From Muribaculaceae bacterium (GTDB lineage Bacteria > Bacteroidota > Bacteroidia > Bacteroidales > Muribaculaceae): a stretch of DNA of 39,092 bases. How positions within the stretch are numbered: position 1 is the stretch's first letter; every line of letters begins with the position of its first letter. The stretch is from assembly GCA_029068655.1 (NCBI GenBank), contig JAIECF010000064.1, forward strand, positions 1 to 39,092. The letters are read 5' to 3'. Below are positions 32,319 through 39,092 of this stretch, piece after piece. A model generated the notes under the pieces. That model worked only from the letters and a program-made list of their open reading frames with translations, was not told the origin of the DNA and searched no databases. The position numbers and the translations under genes were made by a program.

Positions 32319-34286
32319 TTAGCGAAGCCACGAGGAGGGATTCTGCTTCTCGCGTCCTTTCCACACCTCGAAATGTACCGATCCGTGGCGGGGATCGTCC
32401 GGATCGCTGCCTGCAGTCCCCAACGCATGCCCTCCACCGACCTGAGTGCCGACACTCACATTGGCCGAGGCGAGGTTTCCGTAGACCGTGTAATAATCTC
32501 CATGGTTGACGATCACAACAGTTCCATAGCCTGCTACCTTATACACTCCGGACACCTTACCTCCACATACAGACTTTACGGTGGCGCCGGTGGCAACTTC
32601 CGCATCTATGCCGGGATTGTCATACTCGATCTCGGGCATCTCGGGCATGGCGTGGCGTCCGAAAGGATTAGTGATGCGCCATCCGCCATCGACAGGACGC
32701 GGCAGGCTACCTCGAAGGCTTGCAAAATTTACATTTGACGGAGCGGAAACATCCGACACCGTTTTCTCCGCATTCTTCGGTGTGGTCACCGCGATAGGAT
32801 CAGCCTTCTTTGCGGCCTCTCTTACCTCTACAGAATTCTTCAGACGGCGGTCACCCTTCTTGCGGGCTGTCCTTTCGCTGTTCCTGAAGTTCTTCTTATC
32901 CTCTTCCTTGCGCAGCTTCTCCTCAGCCTTGGCCTTGGCTTCGGCAAACTTTTTGTCGGCTTTCTCTTTCTCCTCGGCGGCTTTCTTATATGCCTTCGCC
33001 TTCTCGGCTGCCTCTTTCTGAGCGGCTGCCTTTTCAGACGCAGACTTCTCGGCCAACGCCTTCTCAGCAGCTATCTTCTCGGCCAATGCTTTCTCGGCCG
33101 CTTTCTCCGCGGCCGCTTTTTCCGCAGCCGCTTTCTCGGCAAGCACCCTTTCTGCAGCGGCCTTCTCGGCGGCTGCTCTTTCCGCTTCCGCCTTTTCCTT
33201 CGCTATGCGCTCTGCCTCCGCTTTCGCCTGCCTCTCTGCCTCAGCCCGCTCGCGTGCCTTACGCTCCGCCTCCGCCTTGGCCTGTTCCTGGGCGATAAGG
33301 CTCGAGATGGTCTCCTTAAGTCGGTTGGCTTCCTTCTGTTTGGCTACCAAATGAGACTGAAGCGCATCGCCGTTCTGGCGGAGAGCGGCCACAAGCTGCT
33401 CCTGTCTGCGATGGTTCTCTTCAAGCCGATCCTGCGACCTGGTAAGCTCTTCAAGCGTTACTGTCTGTGCATCCTTAGCCTTGGCAAGCTTCTCGCGCTC
33501 CCGGGCGAGCTGTGCTATCTTTTTGTCGATATCAGCGCTCTTGCGTTCTTTCCAAGCTGAAAACTGACGCATGTAGCGTATGCGGCGCATCGCCTGATTG
33601 AAATTCTCGGAAGCAAAGATGAATGCGAGCGTAGACTGGCTTTTACCTGTAAGCCTCATCTTCTTCACTGCCTTGAGATATTCTTCTCGCATCAGCTTGA
33701 GTTCCGCCTCATTTTTCGTTATCCGGCTGCCGAGACCGGTGATCTCGTTGTCAAGACCGGCCACTTTCTTCCGCAACCCCTGTACCTGTGATCGTCCAGC
33801 GGCGATTTCTGACGAAAGTCTGTTTAGATCCGAAAGTCCGGTCTTTATCTCCTGTTCATTAAGACGCAGCTTCTCCTTGGTCTGCTGTATGTCTCGCTGG
33901 GCAGCCTCCTGCATACGCTTGGCTTCGTCAGACGATGTCGGTAAGGCCTGATTCTTTACATTAGATGATTTCTTCGGAGCCTGATTTCCTTTTTTCTGTG
34001 TCTGACCACCTTTCTTCGTAGCCTGGCTTCCTTTTTTCTGTGTCTGACCACCTTTCTTCGTAGCCTGGCTTCCCTTCTTTTGATTTCCTGAACTCTTAGG
34101 GCCCGACGATACATTTTTTTTCTGATTCGAAGTAGACGTTCCTTTCTTTTTCTTAGTAGTCGCATTCTTGGTCTGCGCTATCAGGACTCCGCCTCTATCA
34201 AAGGAAGGAATACCTGCGACAAACACTGCCACCATCAGGCATGGCAGCAAACGTCTTAAATTATTGCAAAAAAAGAAACTCTTCAT
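32319..34286 (-). CDS. EnvC-type murein hydrolase activator with degenerate LytM domain
   Basis: A 655-residue exported protein: signal peptide (about 1-38), Lys/Gln/Gly-rich low-complexity region (44-112) with two perfect 14-residue repeats, coiled coil (about 120-330), an Ala/Glu/Lys helix of about 130 residues (333-465), then a LytM/M23 domain (about 535-655). In active M23 enzymes zinc is held by HxGxD and by the second His of HxH. Here the first His is Asn557 (DNPGID, Asp561 kept) and HxH reads SVH638, so the zinc site is broken. That fits EnvC/NlpD-type activators, which switch on cell-wall amidases rather than cutting. It is the last gene of the TPR-DUF4292-EnvC set. Confidence 0.88.
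   Translation of the reverse strand: MKSFFFCNNLRRLLPCLMVAVFVAGIPSFDRGGVLIAQTKNATTKKKKGTSTSNQKKNVSSGPKSSGNQKKGSQATKKGGQTQKKGSQATKKGGQTQKKGNQAPKKSSNVKNQALPTSSDEAKRMQEAAQRDIQQTKEKLRLNEQEIKTGLSDLNRLSSEIAAGRSQVQGLRKKVAGLDNEITGLGSRITKNEAELKLMREEYLKAVKKMRLTGKSQSTLAFIFASENFNQAMRRIRYMRQFSAWKERKSADIDKKIAQLAREREKLAKAKDAQTVTLEELTRSQDRLEENHRRQEQLVAALRQNGDALQSHLVAKQKEANRLKETISSLIAQEQAKAEAERKARERAEAERQAKAEAERIAKEKAEAERAAAEKAAAERVLAEKAAAEKAAAEKAAEKALAEKIAAEKALAEKSASEKAAAQKEAAEKAKAYKKAAEEKEKADKKFAEAKAKAEEKLRKEEDKKNFRNSERTARKKGDRRLKNSVEVREAAKKADPIAVTTPKNAEKTVSDVSAPSNVNFASLRGSLPRPVDGGWRITNPFGRHAMPEMPEIEYDNPGIDAEVATGATVKSVCGGKVSGVYKVAGYGTVVIVNHGDYYTVYGNLASANVSVGTQVGGGHALGTAGSDPDDPRHGSVHFEVWKGREKQNPSSWLR
33988..34071 (-). 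repeat. 42-bp tandem repeat x2 within the EnvC-type gene
   Basis: Two identical 42-bp units (33988-34029 and 34030-34071) encode duplicated 14-residue Lys/Gly/Gln segments, with a decayed third copy beside them. The unit keeps the frame, so copy-number change would alter only linker length. Confidence 0.92.
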
Positions 34287-34327: not shown

Positions 34328-35206
34328 TTAAAACTTCATCAGCTGAGTGAAGTCTACCTTTCTGTATTTAGATCCTATAGCGGTAAACTCGAGCGGAGCA
34401 GCCTCGTAGTCTGGATATGACAGCTGTACCTCTCCCTTCATCTTTTTCTTGGGAAGAGAGATCTCAAGTCCCAGTGTCCAGCCTTTGTCGCCATAGACAT
34501 ATTTTGTCTCCACCATCACTTTCGCCTGCTGAAGCATCAACACAAACGAGCATAACTGCCAATAGGAAGAATCCATGACGAATCCGTATTCTGTGCCGGC
34601 TGTCTGCAGTGCTGCAGAAGGATATATCAGTACTTCCTCCGTAGGAAGGGCGATCCATTGTGAAAGAATCGCATTCTCAGAAGTAAGTCTGCCATGACCG
34701 GGAAACGCAACCTGCCCCAATAGAATATCCTGAAGATCGGTAAGATAGGCCTTCCGATCCACTTCCAGTCCTGCAAAAGGCTGCACATTGTAGCAACGCG
34801 TATGCTTATTGATCAAAGTGATGGAATCCTGATCCACCTCTACCCGGGCCACTTCACCCAGAAACGGTGCCCGCGCCGAGAGTATCACACTTTCTCCCCT
34901 CTTCATGTAGACCTTTACACTTACCGACATCGGGAGCCCATCGAACGACAGTTTTCCCTGCATCGACAGATCGGTCCAGTCAGAGTCATAGTTCGATATT
35001 ATTGTATCAGCGGCCACAGTTATCTCCTCCACAGTCATCAAACGTGACGCATCGGAAGGAAGCGCAGGCTCCTGCACATCATCCATGACTACAGGGGCAT
35101 CTCCCGGCTCGCAGACAGCTATTGAATCAGGAACGGACTGCCCGCAAACCTCTGCACTCTGCAGCATCGCGACAGCAATTATCACAATTATATATATAAT
35201 TCGCAT
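34328..35206 (-). CDS. DUF4292 family exported protein
   Basis: About 292 residues from the ATG at 35206; seven further codons are open to an ATG at 35227. A hydrophobic signal (MRIIYIIVIIAVAML) precedes a Pro/Asp/Val-rich linker and, from about 65, a LolA/LolB-like sheet pattern: LSMQGKLSFDGLPMSVSVKVYMKRGESVILSARAPFLG is read as successive strands, ending in YSYPDYEAAPLEF-like and YRKVDF strands. DUF4292 proteins are predicted lipid- or lipoprotein-handling folds. It has no clear lipobox. The gene sits between the TPR and EnvC-type genes, 41 bp from the latter. Confidence 0.8.
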   Translation of the reverse strand: MRIIYIIVIIAVAMLQSAEVCGQSVPDSIAVCEPGDAPVVMDDVQEPALPSDASRLMTVEEITVAADTIISNYDSDWTDLSMQGKLSFDGLPMSVSVKVYMKRGESVILSARAPFLGEVARVEVDQDSITLINKHTRCYNVQPFAGLEVDRKAYLTDLQDILLGQVAFPGHGRLTSENAILSQWIALPTEEVLIYPSAALQTAGTEYGFVMDSSYWQLCSFVLMLQQAKVMVETKYVYGDKGWTLGLEISLPKKKMKGEVQLSYPDYEAAPLEFTAIGSKYRKVDFTQLMKF

Positions 35207-35261
35207 ATGGTTATGTCTTTTTATCACGATTCATCAGCTTCTTTCGCGTGGCAGCATTATA

Positions 35262-37088
35262 TTATTTATTCTTTAATCTTTTTTCTTTAACCTTCTGCTC
35301 TATCTCCTTATTGTCTTTGTCGAGTTCGAGAGCCTTCTTCCAGCTCTCGAGCGCCTTATCCTTCTGGCCGCACATATACTGGATATCACCTAAGTGATCC
35401 CAGTATTCACCGGAGGATTCAGCATCGGGAGTGATGGTCTCCATAGCCTTTTCCTGCAGTTCAAGAGCCTCGGCAAACTGACCTTTAAGATACAGAATCC
35501 ATGCGAGGGTGTCAAGATATGTGGGATTGTCAGGCTGCTCGCCTACCGCTTTCCGGCTAAGCTCTTCAGCTTTATCGAGGTCTCCGCCTCCGATAGCAAG
35601 ATAGTAGGCATAGTTGTTGAGCGCTATCACGCTCTCCGGATTGAGAGCGAGCACCACATCGTATTCCTTAGCGCTCCGCTCCACGTCGCCGGTCTTAAAA
35701 CTTCCGTCACCTACCATCTGGAAGATGTCAGCCACTTTCATCAGAGACTCATACGAAAGCTTGGCTGCCTTCTGAAGCATCGTCTGAGCGTCGTCGGTCA
35801 GCAACGCTCCCGGGAGTTCCATATCAAGCAGCTTCTGATAGGCGCCCCTCGCCTTGTCATAGTCTTCGGAAAGCGAGGACGCTGTGGCATATACGAGCAG
35901 CAGTCCCCTCGGCGTCTCCTGAAGTTTCTCCATTCCTTTCTCGCATACCGCCATGGCATCGGCATATCTGTCGTCGGCGAAGTTGAAATGTGCAAGACGT
36001 GTCCAATAGTCGGGATTCTCCGGTTCGAGGTCGGTGGCATAAGCCATCAGCTCCCTTGCCCTCGCATAGTCGCCGATAGTGGCAGAATATTGTGCACCCA
36101 GGTCAAGAACCTTGGGTTCATGAGGATACTGATGAAGCAATCCGTCAAAGAGTCGTGCGCCACGTCGCAAGTCGGCAGTAGAATCTGAGATGATATTCTG
36201 CATATAGCGGGTCATCATGTCGAGTTTCTCATCAAGCATGATGTTCTCGCTGAGGATAGCTTCGCTGCTCTTGCGGTCGTAGGCGGCGGAGTCGCCCCGC
36301 TCAAGATAGAAATTGGCGAGTGTGAGTTTCACCCTTCCGTCGTCGGGATCAAGAGCCTCGGCCCTCTCGTAGCTCGCAAGCGCGGAGTCAGGCATCTCGA
36401 TGGCCTCCATGGCGTTGCCACGGATAAGAAGGTATTCTGTACTTAGAGGATTTTCCCTTACGAGCCTGTCGCTCTCGCTGATAAGTCGCGCGGTGTCACC
36501 CTTGAGATACATCAGGGAGAATTTACGCAGAGCTATGTCGGGATCGTTTCCCTCTATGCGCTCGTAGCGTTCAAGTGTAGATATCGCCTTGTCATAGTCT
36601 TGCTTCCCCGTATAATACTGGGCAAGCTGAATCAGGATAGCGGGTAGGCTCCCCGAGAGGGTATCACTTCTCTCGGCCACACGGATAGCCTCGTCAAGAT
36701 CGCCGGTGCGCGCCACAAGAAACGAGTAGTTCATCGCCTCTTCAGTCTCGCCCGGATACTTATCAACATAAGCTTTCATGAGAGATATGGAGCGCCCTAC
36801 CTCCTCAGGGGAACTTAGAGTGTCGTTGCGCAGTGTCATACGCATCAGAGCGTATGTATAGTTTGCCTCAGCATTGTCCGGATCTGTCAAGGCGGCCTTC
36901 TTCATGAGCTCATAGGCTTCCGCTGCCCTCCCCTCTGCAAGTGCAACGCTGCCCTCAATATAATAATAGCGTGCCTTGGCTTTGTCTGCTGAGGAGTTTT
37001 GCGTAGTCTTTCCAGCCATGACAACGAGTGTTCCGGCCAGCATGGTCATCGCCACTGCAAACGCTATCCTGCCATATCTTTTCTTCAT
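35262..37088 (-). CDS. TPR-repeat exported protein
   Basis: A 608-residue protein with an N-terminal hydrophobic segment (FAVAMTMLAGTLVVMAG; signal peptide or anchor) followed by tetratricopeptide units over nearly the whole length, for example YYYIEGSVALAEGRAAEAYELMKKA at the start and LGDIQYMCGQKDKALESWKKALELD at the end, where the repeats best match consensus. It should be a periplasmic or membrane-attached scaffold. It heads the three-gene set with the DUF4292 and EnvC-type genes, an arrangement I recall as conserved in Bacteroidales and pointing to envelope or division work. Minus-strand TAAATTTG at 37118-37125 is a likely -7 box. Confidence 0.88.
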   Translation of the reverse strand: MKKRYGRIAFAVAMTMLAGTLVVMAGKTTQNSSADKAKARYYYIEGSVALAEGRAAEAYELMKKAALTDPDNAEANYTYALMRMTLRNDTLSSPEEVGRSISLMKAYVDKYPGETEEAMNYSFLVARTGDLDEAIRVAERSDTLSGSLPAILIQLAQYYTGKQDYDKAISTLERYERIEGNDPDIALRKFSLMYLKGDTARLISESDRLVRENPLSTEYLLIRGNAMEAIEMPDSALASYERAEALDPDDGRVKLTLANFYLERGDSAAYDRKSSEAILSENIMLDEKLDMMTRYMQNIISDSTADLRRGARLFDGLLHQYPHEPKVLDLGAQYSATIGDYARARELMAYATDLEPENPDYWTRLAHFNFADDRYADAMAVCEKGMEKLQETPRGLLLVYATASSLSEDYDKARGAYQKLLDMELPGALLTDDAQTMLQKAAKLSYESLMKVADIFQMVGDGSFKTGDVERSAKEYDVVLALNPESVIALNNYAYYLAIGGGDLDKAEELSRKAVGEQPDNPTYLDTLAWILYLKGQFAEALELQEKAMETITPDAESSGEYWDHLGDIQYMCGQKDKALESWKKALELDKDNKEIEQKVKEKRLKNK

Positions 37089-37200: not shown

Positions 37201-37208
37201 TATCTTTG
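37201..37208 (+). promoter_or_regulatory. -7 box of the sigma/barrel fusion gene
   Basis: TATCTTTG fits TAnnTTTG. No clear TTTG sits at the -33 position, so a regulated or alternative promoter is possible. The leader would run about 60 nt and hold a short ORF. Confidence 0.5.
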
Positions 37209-37230: not shown

Positions 37231-37278
37231 ATGCAGCGATGCAGTATTAAGACTCATATGGTATCTTATAAGATGTGA
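37231..37278 (+). CDS. 15-codon leader ORF overlapping the sigma/barrel start
   Basis: ATG at 37231 opens 15 codons (MQRCSIKTHMVSYKM) ending at TGA 37276-37278, which overlaps the GTG start (37275-37277) of the next gene as GTGA. This spacing is typical of translational coupling. It may be fortuitous; no codon statistics are possible at this length. Confidence 0.35.
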   Translation: MQRCSIKTHMVSYKM

Positions 37279-38945
37279 GACACCTTTACCTCGACATAGA
37301 CAACAAGACTCTCGTGGAGGAGTGCAGGAGCGGTGATAAAGATGCCATGAGCATTCTCTACACCCGCTACGCAACCCGTATGCTCCATGTCATCACCCGG
37401 TATGTCAACGACCGGGACAGCGCACACGATATACTTCACGACGGATTCATAGCCGCTTTCACCCGTATCGATTCACTCCGCGATCCGGAACATATCGAGT
37501 TCTGGCTCGCTACGATCATGAAGAATCTATCCCTGAAGTATCTGCAGGCCCAGACAGTGACATCAATTCTTGAGGAAATACCTGAAACAATTGACGAACC
37601 GGAGATAGATGACATCCTCGATTTCGCCACACTCGAATCACTCATCAAGCAGCTGCCGGAAGGATACCAGAAGGTGTTCCGTCTTGCTGTGCTTGAGGGA
37701 AAATCGCACAAGGAGATATCGGAAATCCTCGGTATCGCTCCTAATTCATCGTCCTCTCAGCTATTCCACGCCAAACTGCGTCTTCGCGAACTGATAAAAG
37801 ACTACCGGCTCCGAGCCGGGCTAATATCGCTTCTCCTCCTCATAGCCTGCTCCGGATTGCTATTTCTTTCCAGGAAAGCAGAAGATACGCATACCAGGGA
37901 TTTCCTATCGGCTGACGCAAGGCCTAAAAAACGGATTTCGAATCCTGAAAATGCCATAGAACCTACTACAGAAGAATTGCCGGAAGAGACTTGCGCGCCC
38001 ATAGTTGCCGTACATTCTAAAAATACCGGTAAGGGACTTCCATCAGCATCTGCCGATTCTACGCCAGAGAACGATGCTGAAGAGAATGAGGCCCCCCTAT
38101 CTGCTACTGCAGATGAAAGCCAATCTCAGATTGAATCCAATTCCGTAGAAAATTCCGTAGAAGAGTCCCCATCATCCGGTAAACCTGAAAGACTGCCTGC
38201 AGAGCCTCTTGATGAAGACTATAGGAATGACTACGACAGATTGTTTGCAGATATACCGAGCAAGCCATCATCTTCAAAGGGATGGTCGGCCGAAATTTCA
38301 TTCGATCCCGGAATAATCAGTTTCAATGGAGTGGCTGACGTTGCCAACACGGCTAATCCTCCGGCAAATGACCCGTCGCACGGGCCTGACGACGATAAAG
38401 ACCCGGATCAGACCAGAATGTCCCATATTCCTGAAGATGTGGAAAGTTCCCTCGGCTCAGCCCCACGGCGACATTATCTGCCAATCTCATTCGCTCTCAC
38501 TGCCGAGAAGCATCTTTCCTCTTGGCTCGGTCTGGAGTCAGGAATAGGATATTCATATCTCCATACCGATTTCGAACGCTATAAAGAGCCGTCAACATGC
38601 CATTGGCATTATCTCGAGATTCCCCTCAAAGTGAATCTTTATGTCTACACTTCCCCACGTATGAAAATTTACGGAAGTATGGGAGGAAGAATTGCCATTC
38701 CTATATATTCCTATGCGCAAATGAATCCAAACACCCACGTACGGAGCGGAACATTCAGTTCCAAGACGGTGTGGTCGGCAGGAGGAAGCATCGGCGCGGC
38801 TTTCCGCCTTTCAAAACGTGTCGACCTCTTTGTGGAGCCGTCGCTCCACTACCATTTCCCACAACAGTGCACAATACCCAATATCTGGACCGACGACGAG
38901 CCATGGAGCATATCGATTCCGATCGGTTTCCGCTTCAACTGGTAA
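37275..38945 (+). CDS. ECF sigma factor fused to TM helix, linker and outer-membrane beta-barrel
   Basis: One uninterrupted 556-residue frame. Residues 24-90 are sigma region 2 (LYTRYATRMLHVITRYV, DILHDGFIAAF, FWLATIMKNLSLKYL) and 119-172 region 4 with its helix-turn-helix (GKSHKEISEILGIAPNSSSS). Residues 183-198 are one membrane helix flanked by Arg (RLRAG before, SRK after), then about 135 residues rich in Ser, Glu, Pro and Asn with no fold. Residues about 337-556 show barrel strands (GWSAEISFDPG, GLESGIGYSYLH, MKIYGSMGGRIAI, VDLFVEPSLHYHF) and an aromatic end (GFRFNW) as recognised by BamA. Start is GTG 37275, since an in-frame stop lies at 37269. No ATG lies between residue 82 and residue 382, so separate translation of the second half is not obvious. 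Confidence 0.85.
   Translation: MRHLYLDIDNKTLVEECRSGDKDAMSILYTRYATRMLHVITRYVNDRDSAHDILHDGFIAAFTRIDSLRDPEHIEFWLATIMKNLSLKYLQAQTVTSILEEIPETIDEPEIDDILDFATLESLIKQLPEGYQKVFRLAVLEGKSHKEISEILGIAPNSSSSQLFHAKLRLRELIKDYRLRAGLISLLLLIACSGLLFLSRKAEDTHTRDFLSADARPKKRISNPENAIEPTTEELPEETCAPIVAVHSKNTGKGLPSASADSTPENDAEENEAPLSATADESQSQIESNSVENSVEESPSSGKPERLPAEPLDEDYRNDYDRLFADIPSKPSSSKGWSAEISFDPGIISFNGVADVANTANPPANDPSHGPDDDKDPDQTRMSHIPEDVESSLGSAPRRHYLPISFALTAEKHLSSWLGLESGIGYSYLHTDFERYKEPSTCHWHYLEIPLKVNLYVYTSPRMKIYGSMGGRIAIPIYSYAQMNPNTHVRSGTFSSKTVWSAGGSIGAAFRLSKRVDLFVEPSLHYHFPQQCTIPNIWTDDEPWSISIPIGFRFNW
37805..37819 (+). repeat. GC-rich inverted repeat at the sigma/TM junction
   Basis: CCGGCT and AGCCGG pair perfectly around CCG within codons 177-182, exactly between sigma region 4 and the membrane helix. 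Confidence 0.7.
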
Positions 38946-39039: not shown

Positions 39040-39092
39040 TAATTTTTTTTAATTCTTCATGCAGTATTCCAACTGAATTCTTATCTATATAG

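Follow-up and report, generated by a model that had tools for sequence, protein, structure and literature searches.

A conserved single-chain ECF sigma factor with a predicted outer-membrane barrel and an associated promoter-like element in Muribaculaceae and related families

The window analyzed in this study, a stretch of 39,092 nucleotides from a Muribaculaceae bacterium (contig JAIECF010000064.1), carries near its end a real, conserved and constrained single-chain regulator, the layout of which is already known as Dma3-type. The analysis yielded the chain itself, its conservation, constraint on both of its ends, the loss of the anti-sigma domain and a common promoter-like element (Table 1). 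Our preferred reading, to which we assign a probability of just under one half (about 0.48), is that the sigma factor would be held at the inner membrane, cut free on envelope stress sensed via the barrel, and would then induce itself and a small envelope operon.

Table 1. Coordinates of the regulator, its parts, neighboring genes and promoter-like elements. Positions are those of the window unless a contig of the same genome is named.
Feature	Position	Strand	Remark
M23 peptidase/EnvC-like protein	32319..34286	-	EnvC model below cut-off
DUF4292/LolB1-like protein	34328..35227	-	NCBIfam LolB1_Flavo 40.2 bits, cut-off 50
Divergent TPR protein	35262..37088	-	neighbor in close relatives only
Housekeeping-like -7 element TATCTTTG (TAnnTTTG)	37201..37208	+	upstream of ECF-type element
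Promoter-like element GCAGTATT-N13-TATCTTAT	37241..37269	+	GTG start 13 nt past first T of TATC
Single-chain ECF sigma/inner-membrane helix/tether/outer-membrane barrel	37275..38945	+	556 aa, GTG start
Sigma region 2	37356..37553	+	residues 28-93
Sigma region 4	37632..37784	+	residues 120-170
Inner-membrane helix	37812..37877	+	approx. residues 180-201; hydropathy, conserved position, model
Disordered periplasmic tether	37878..38267	+	approx. residues 202-331; fast evolving
8-strand OprF/OmpA-like barrel	38268..38942	+	residues 332-556; model, fold match
Long disordered loop within barrel	38310..38465	+	approx. residues 346-397
Second element copy	39061..39087	+	just before contig end
Exact GCAGTAT-N14-TATCWW sites in the window's genome	37241; 39061; C183:1544; C174:18232		at the fusion; at window end; before cassette; before DUF4377 lipoprotein-like gene

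A preliminary description of this DNA had proposed that sigma factor, helix, tether and barrel are encoded in one frame, and this was confirmed by family tests, a structure model and relatives. By Pfam, the N-terminal part has sigma regions 2 and 4 only, without region 3, as expected for an ECF sigma factor; it reached 72.6 bits with the NCBIfam model sigma70-ECF (cut-off 42.9), and among the fold matches listed were sigmaE region 2 with DNA and SigR region 4. In the predicted structure, the region 4 helix and the inner-membrane helix form one continuous helix (residues 156-204), the tether has pLDDT values below 50 at residues 204-324, and the C-terminus models well as an eight-stranded transmembrane barrel, assigned to the OmpA/OprF type by model and fold. 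With its membrane helix, disordered tether and C-terminal barrel the protein resembles the Dma family; the N-terminal cytoplasmic anti-sigma segment of the two-gene Dma proteins is absent, the helix following directly after region 4. By domain order, with the sigma domain N-terminal on the helix-tether-barrel chain, it is of the Dma3 type.

Of the interpretation given in the preliminary description, the replacement of the anti-sigma segment by the sigma factor thus stands; the layout is not new, and the support drawn from the divergent neighbors is weak. Dma3 of B. thetaiotaomicron (bt_2778-2779) was described in 2026 as having its own N-terminal sigma domain and as not adjoining an ECF21 sigma gene; in the accessible part of that paper (PMC13088901), in which a 2024 PNAS paper is cited, very little is said to be known about Dma3, and the dma3 locus is reported to be up in dma1 and dma2 mutants. 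In the accessible part of PMC10434189, BT2778 appears among the factors of the sigma-70 family. The window protein, likened to Dma3 by this published description, has the same sigma-first layout; no regulon or promoter is given for Dma3 in the accessible part of PMC13088901, whereas a candidate box exists for the window family. Dma1/Das1, Dma2/Das2 and EcfO-Reo likewise combine an ECF sigma factor with an inner-membrane helix, a disordered tether and a C-terminal outer-membrane barrel, but in two genes and with an N-terminal anti-sigma segment; for the two-gene pair EcfO-Reo, a regulon induced by envelope-active toxins is described in the accessible parts of PMC9308784 and PMC13114119. In the literature searched, the circuit of box and small envelope-related target set was not found in print, and a search for TGCAGTCTTT gave, among the matches listed, only ones on other subjects. 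Membrane-tethered activators of the ToxR/CadC kind join a DNA-binding domain to a membrane helix and an outer sensor; in the window protein, a sigma factor takes the cytoplasmic position and the chain extends to the outer membrane.

For conservation, 111 genomes of the window's genus were scanned, 58 of which gave some match at E ≤1e-12, many of these being other ECF sigma factors. Sigma and barrel lie in one complete ORF in 27 of the 30 genus fusion loci (L001, the window, and L009-L037), and a stop or frameshift near 37800-37830 separating two genes, named as a possibility in the preliminary description, was not seen there. Two of the remaining loci run off their contig (L026, L027) and one has an early stop within the sigma part followed by a 494-aa ORF (L037); stops flagged at L028 and L033 fall upstream of their start codons. 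The 27 sequences, when aligned, are 28-73% identical to the window protein. Homologs with the same domain order were found in several families: in a wider scan, the best 80 of at least 553 relatives were kept, and these come from Muribaculaceae, Bacteroides, Phocaeicola, Prevotella, Segatella, Hoylesella, Xylanibacter and others. Counting duplicates and L037, an ORF of 480 aa or more is present at 100 of 110 loci, and the other ten comprise contig-end cuts (L026, L027, L049, L050), split pairs (L106, L109, L117), two loci that look broken (L107, L113) and a partial one (L108).

The position of the membrane helix is equally constant. The 17-residue stretch of highest hydrophobicity begins 10-21 residues past the SSSQ of region 4 in 83 of 85 distinct fusions (60 residues in the other two; L052, being without this motif, was excluded from the count), as compared to about 42 residues ahead of the membrane helix in the two-gene Dma proteins of the same genome. 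This leaves no room for an anti-sigma domain, in agreement with the claim that the sigma factor stands in place of the Dma anti-sigma segment, and since that domain is gone, control must come from the tether or from another protein. The ten residues before the hydrophobic stretch have a mean net charge of +2.2 and the ten after it one of 0.05, and the C-terminal residue is tryptophan in 76/85 fusions. Pairwise dN/dS values of the window gene versus eight close relatives were 0.03-0.07 for the sigma part, 0.07-0.16 for the barrel and 0.32-0.77 for the tether, with dS close to saturation and with undefined values in three helix comparisons and one barrel comparison; by these values, sigma and barrel look to be under strong constraint.

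Upstream of the gene, ATGCAGTATT was found in 10/10 aligned regions of close loci (window included), followed by TATC or CATC at a fixed gap; at L160 the element lies farther from its gene than in the nine others. When 13-17 nt were allowed between TGCAGTA and TATC/TGTC/CATC/CGTC, the spacer was 15 nt in all 23 distinct genus sequences with the element before the fusion start, and the GTG start follows 12-13 nt after the first base of the -10 part in 19 of these 23, the window among them. With the usual geometry of ECF promoters, the transcription start would fall at or next to the GTG, so that the autoregulated message is predicted to be near-leaderless and GTG-initiated. Among 83 distinct fusions (upstream regions shorter than 100 nt and L108 dropped), TGCAGT(A/C)(T/A)T occurs in 71 within 120 nt upstream of the codon that aligns with residue 8 and is missing from 12, as compared to 0/83 on the reverse strand of the same 120 nt and 52/1179 for control ORFs. 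The controls comprise every ORF of 150 aa or more at these loci and also take in spurious ORFs and possible targets. We infer that the element is the promoter of the fused sigma factor, which would provide positive feedback. For the housekeeping-like element farther upstream, TAnnTTTG is given as the -7 consensus in the accessible part of PMC12632263.

A related box also lies near the end of the fusion gene. TGCAGT(A/C/G)(T/A)T was found between 40 nt before and 320 nt after the fusion stop in 56/85 fusions (missing in 29/85), with 0/85 in antisense orientation and 26/458 at the equivalent position behind other ORFs of 300 aa or more. In the window, where the contig ends 147 nt past the fusion gene, the second element copy is predicted to be the promoter of the next gene, encoding a 190-aa outer-membrane-like protein. 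This is probably the 190-aa gene at the start of contig C183, which has TATCTATATAG in common with the window contig at the ends of both; it is followed on C183 by an FNT-like gene (opposite strand, own reading), a lipoprotein gene and a radical-SAM gene. Across the family, genes behind downstream boxes look like those of radical-SAM proteins, lipoproteins, CotH-like proteins, methyltransferases and serpins, family tests having been done on L041, L068 and L070 and other labels being our own reading or similarity groups. At L041, lipoprotein and radical-SAM genes matched above cut-off (TIGR04134, 75.6 bits versus 39.8; TIGR04133, 579 bits versus 425), whereas the radical-SAM and oxidoreductase genes at L070 stayed below. 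The operon adjacent to L070 encodes a radical-SAM protein that stands far from TIGR04133, scoring 30.7 bits against a cut-off of 425. It also has genes for a Gfo/Idh-like oxidoreductase, likewise below cut-offs, and for a small lipoprotein-like product without family, and similar genes follow fusions at other loci.

Whole genomes were also searched for stricter forms of the element. TGCAGTC-N16-CTCYT gave two matches per genome in P. denticola, S. buccae, H. timonensis and S. baroniae, all eight of them at the fusion locus, as compared to six matches of the reversed control in the same four Prevotellaceae genomes; the pattern was derived from those four loci, so weaker sites elsewhere could escape it. 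It had 0 matches in B. rodentium (G115), which is uninformative here, as the fusion of this genome is broken and has its own box with another -10 part. In the window's genome, GCAGTAT-N14-TATCWW had four exact matches versus one for the reversed control, and the site on C174 lies 55 nt ahead of a DUF4377 lipoprotein-like gene; with one mismatch allowed, 22 matches stood against 15 in the control, and therefore only exact matches carry weight. Over the 111 genomes, 86 exact matches were found in 48 genomes (control 29). By counts from the match table, 54 of them (control 9) fall into the 22 genomes with a window-type fusion, defined by at least 36% full-length identity or a cut at the contig end, and 32 (control 20) into the other 89 genomes, some of which have more distant fusions. 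Of the 54, 37 are at the fusion or its cassette and 17 elsewhere, as compared to the 9 control matches in these 22 genomes; distant sites are thus few, which speaks against release. Eighteen hand-picked sites of the 86 were inspected: three are intergenic, away from the fusion and ahead of lipoprotein-like genes (L240, L244, L245), two lie ahead of serpins adjoining a fusion (L247, L248), ten are inside open frames, and L246, L249 and L251 are of none of these kinds.

The cassette of TIGR04134 lipoprotein and TIGR04133 radical-SAM genes is a predicted target, as distinct from the regulator in the window; in the window's clade it follows the fusion, in many cases carrying the same box, and its genes outside L041 were called by similarity to tested members. 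In the literature searched, neither model was found named. TIGR04133 occurs in 31 of the 111 genus genomes, namely in 17/22 with a window-type fusion and in 14/89 of the others (Fisher p 7e-8, uncorrected for kinship and with groups set post hoc), and at least four of those 14 have a more distant fusion (G004, G096, G106, G108). In 14 of these 17 genomes, its gene shares contig and strand with the fusion at a distance of no more than about 5.5 kb; in the other three (G000, which is the window's genome, G077 and G090), the two are on different contigs and the fusion is at or near a contig end. That the box belongs to the radical-SAM cassette and not to the sigma factor is unlikely, though the case is not clean: seven cassette loci without a nearby fusion were scanned for TGCAGT/TGCAAG, and six had none, while L123 (G096), in a genome with a distant fusion on another contig, had one. 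In a scan of L121-L160 for GCAGTA patterns, the strict element was also present at L122 (G059), for which a fusion was not found, and L121 and L128 had loose matches.

For the working of the chain, the following course is proposed. The sigma domain would lie inside the cell, the helix in the inner membrane and the barrel in the outer membrane, where its assembly state or surface contacts would report on that membrane. If the barrel were unassembled, damaged or displaced, the chain would be cut near the membrane and the sigma domain set free. It would then direct transcription from promoters of the TGCAGT(A/C)(T/A)T type, at its own gene and at a few others that mostly encode exported envelope proteins; in the window's clade these would be the outer-membrane-like protein and the TIGR04134/TIGR04133 cassette. 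Release by cleavage is known from sigmaE/RseA, the model for the proposed release; by analogy with it and with EcfO-Reo we infer proteolytic release and the signal. The distant sites ahead of lipoprotein-like genes (L240, L244, L245, L123) would suggest action in trans, and hence release.

The chain might instead never be cut, and the tethered sigma factor might act at the membrane, mainly in cis, on two nearby promoters. By co-transcriptional insertion of its product, the locus would be drawn to the membrane, and RNA polymerase would be recruited there by the tethered domain. We consider this rather unlikely. It would suit the Prevotellaceae, where both strict sites per genome are at an intact fusion gene and action without release would be sufficient, and it is favored by the frequent box around or just past the fusion stop; against it stand the far candidate sites in Muribaculaceae, the G096 cassette with its box on another contig than the fusion, and the missing linker between region 4 and the membrane helix, which should crowd the polymerase. 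In its full form, with a two-membrane sensor controlling its own promoters through its own insertion and without a soluble messenger, we regard it as improbable. If it were true, a sensor spanning to the outer membrane would control its own locus directly. As the sites found adjoin the gene in some species, the family lends itself well to asking whether a tethered sigma factor has to be cut or is able to act where it is held.

Release also has to be weighed against the two-gene relatives. The window's genome has two split serpin-sigma-Dma operons, at G000:C176 (L002/L157) and G000:C41 (L003/L158). Of the split sets behind a serpin gene in this genus, both of these included, 15/16 have TGCAAG, upstream of the serpin gene, and 0/16 have TGCAGT; six genus sets without an upstream serpin have TGCAAG in one case (L213) and TGCAGT in none. 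The TGCAGTATTT box itself is present on the split pairs L106 and L117 and on two-gene pairs of the Bacteroides-genus group (L279, L280, L281; CGCAGTATTT in L278), so that a box special to fusions was rejected; judged from these pairs, it marks a sigma type that includes the fusions, and not fusion itself. This puts less weight on release and more on the possibility that the fused sigma factor is held by a paralogous anti-sigma segment, or that its promoters are read by a paralogous sigma factor, as the box on two-gene pairs could suggest, with the barrel serving localization. The two split pairs in the window's genome and the induction of dma3 in the dma1 and dma2 mutants (accessible part of PMC13088901) speak for this possibility, which we still hold to be distinctly improbable given the TGCAAG box of the genus split sets and the tree described below, in which fused and split sigma domains group apart.

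The same targets may be served by both types of regulator. In G056 and G073, a split serpin-sigma-Dma set stands ahead of the same lipoprotein/radical-SAM cassette, with TGCAAG before serpin and lipoprotein in L125 (G073) and before the serpin only in L127 (G056). By this arrangement, a fused and a split regulator may be able to replace each other at the head of one circuit. The TGCAGT element was also observed on serpin genes beside single-chain fusions at L155 (G107), L247 (G102) and L248 (G026), and both split and fused regulators seem to have serpins among their targets. The box yields a testable prediction as to which promoters the fused sigma factor uses and how few they are, with operons for exported and radical-SAM proteins among them; these operons behind the box are predicted to be driven by it.

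In a tree of 111 sigma domains, the 25 split family rows cluster together with support 99/100, and the 84 fused rows stand outside this cluster. Two changes between fused and split labels were counted, as the far ECF rows L230 and L231 were also labelled split, and 11% of the bootstrap trees had a single change; the tree fits one old fusion event and does not prove it. That the sigma part is inactive in transcription and merely a membrane-side domain, as tethering without a linker might suggest, is very improbable in view of its low dN/dS, its fold matches to sigmaE region 2 with DNA and SigR region 4, and the conserved box. Joining of two genes by a lost stop codon or mis-assembly, for which same-frame split pairs (L002, stop and 9 nt; L278-L281) offer a starting point, is in effect refuted by the relatives: species from several families have complete fusions that retain no anti-sigma domain, and fused and split domains separate on the tree.

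In the preliminary description, the divergent TPR, DUF4292 and EnvC genes had been taken as an envelope-stress context. This support is weak, since the TPR neighbor was found in 12/110 loci, all of them close relatives (window and duplicate species included; many flanks are short), and as a functional partner the divergent operon was rejected. The stronger functional link is to the lipoprotein/radical-SAM cassette with the common promoter-like box, which lies downstream and beyond the end of the window.

Several single-chain genes look broken, namely L107 (B. rodentium), L113 (B. muris), one in G149 and L037 (G062). When 60 genomes of the Bacteroides-genus group were searched with the L077 protein (E ≤1e-30), a long single-chain frame was listed only in G116. 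Among five large genomes of this group searched with A1, G116 had two intact single-chain ORFs, and the best sigma-plus-barrel match in G136, G157, G162 and G172 was a two-gene pair. Apparent single open frames of 626-640 aa in these four are actually two ORFs in one frame with a stop between, as at G000:C176. The sigma and Dma genes of L002 (1477-1488, minus strand) and L278-L281 likewise share a frame, with a stop and a few codons between them, and such pairs illustrate how fusion could start. Beside the two-gene pairs L278, L280 and L281 lies a short exported lipoprotein-like gene (LQSCL.DDD), which looks NigD-like. L094, from a record titled Roseburia sp. (Bacillota), is a single-chain fusion that groups with Prevotellaceae and is probably on a mis-binned contig. 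G084 has two single-chain copies, one (L147) followed by omp190 and lipoprotein genes and the other (L146) by lipoprotein and radical-SAM genes.
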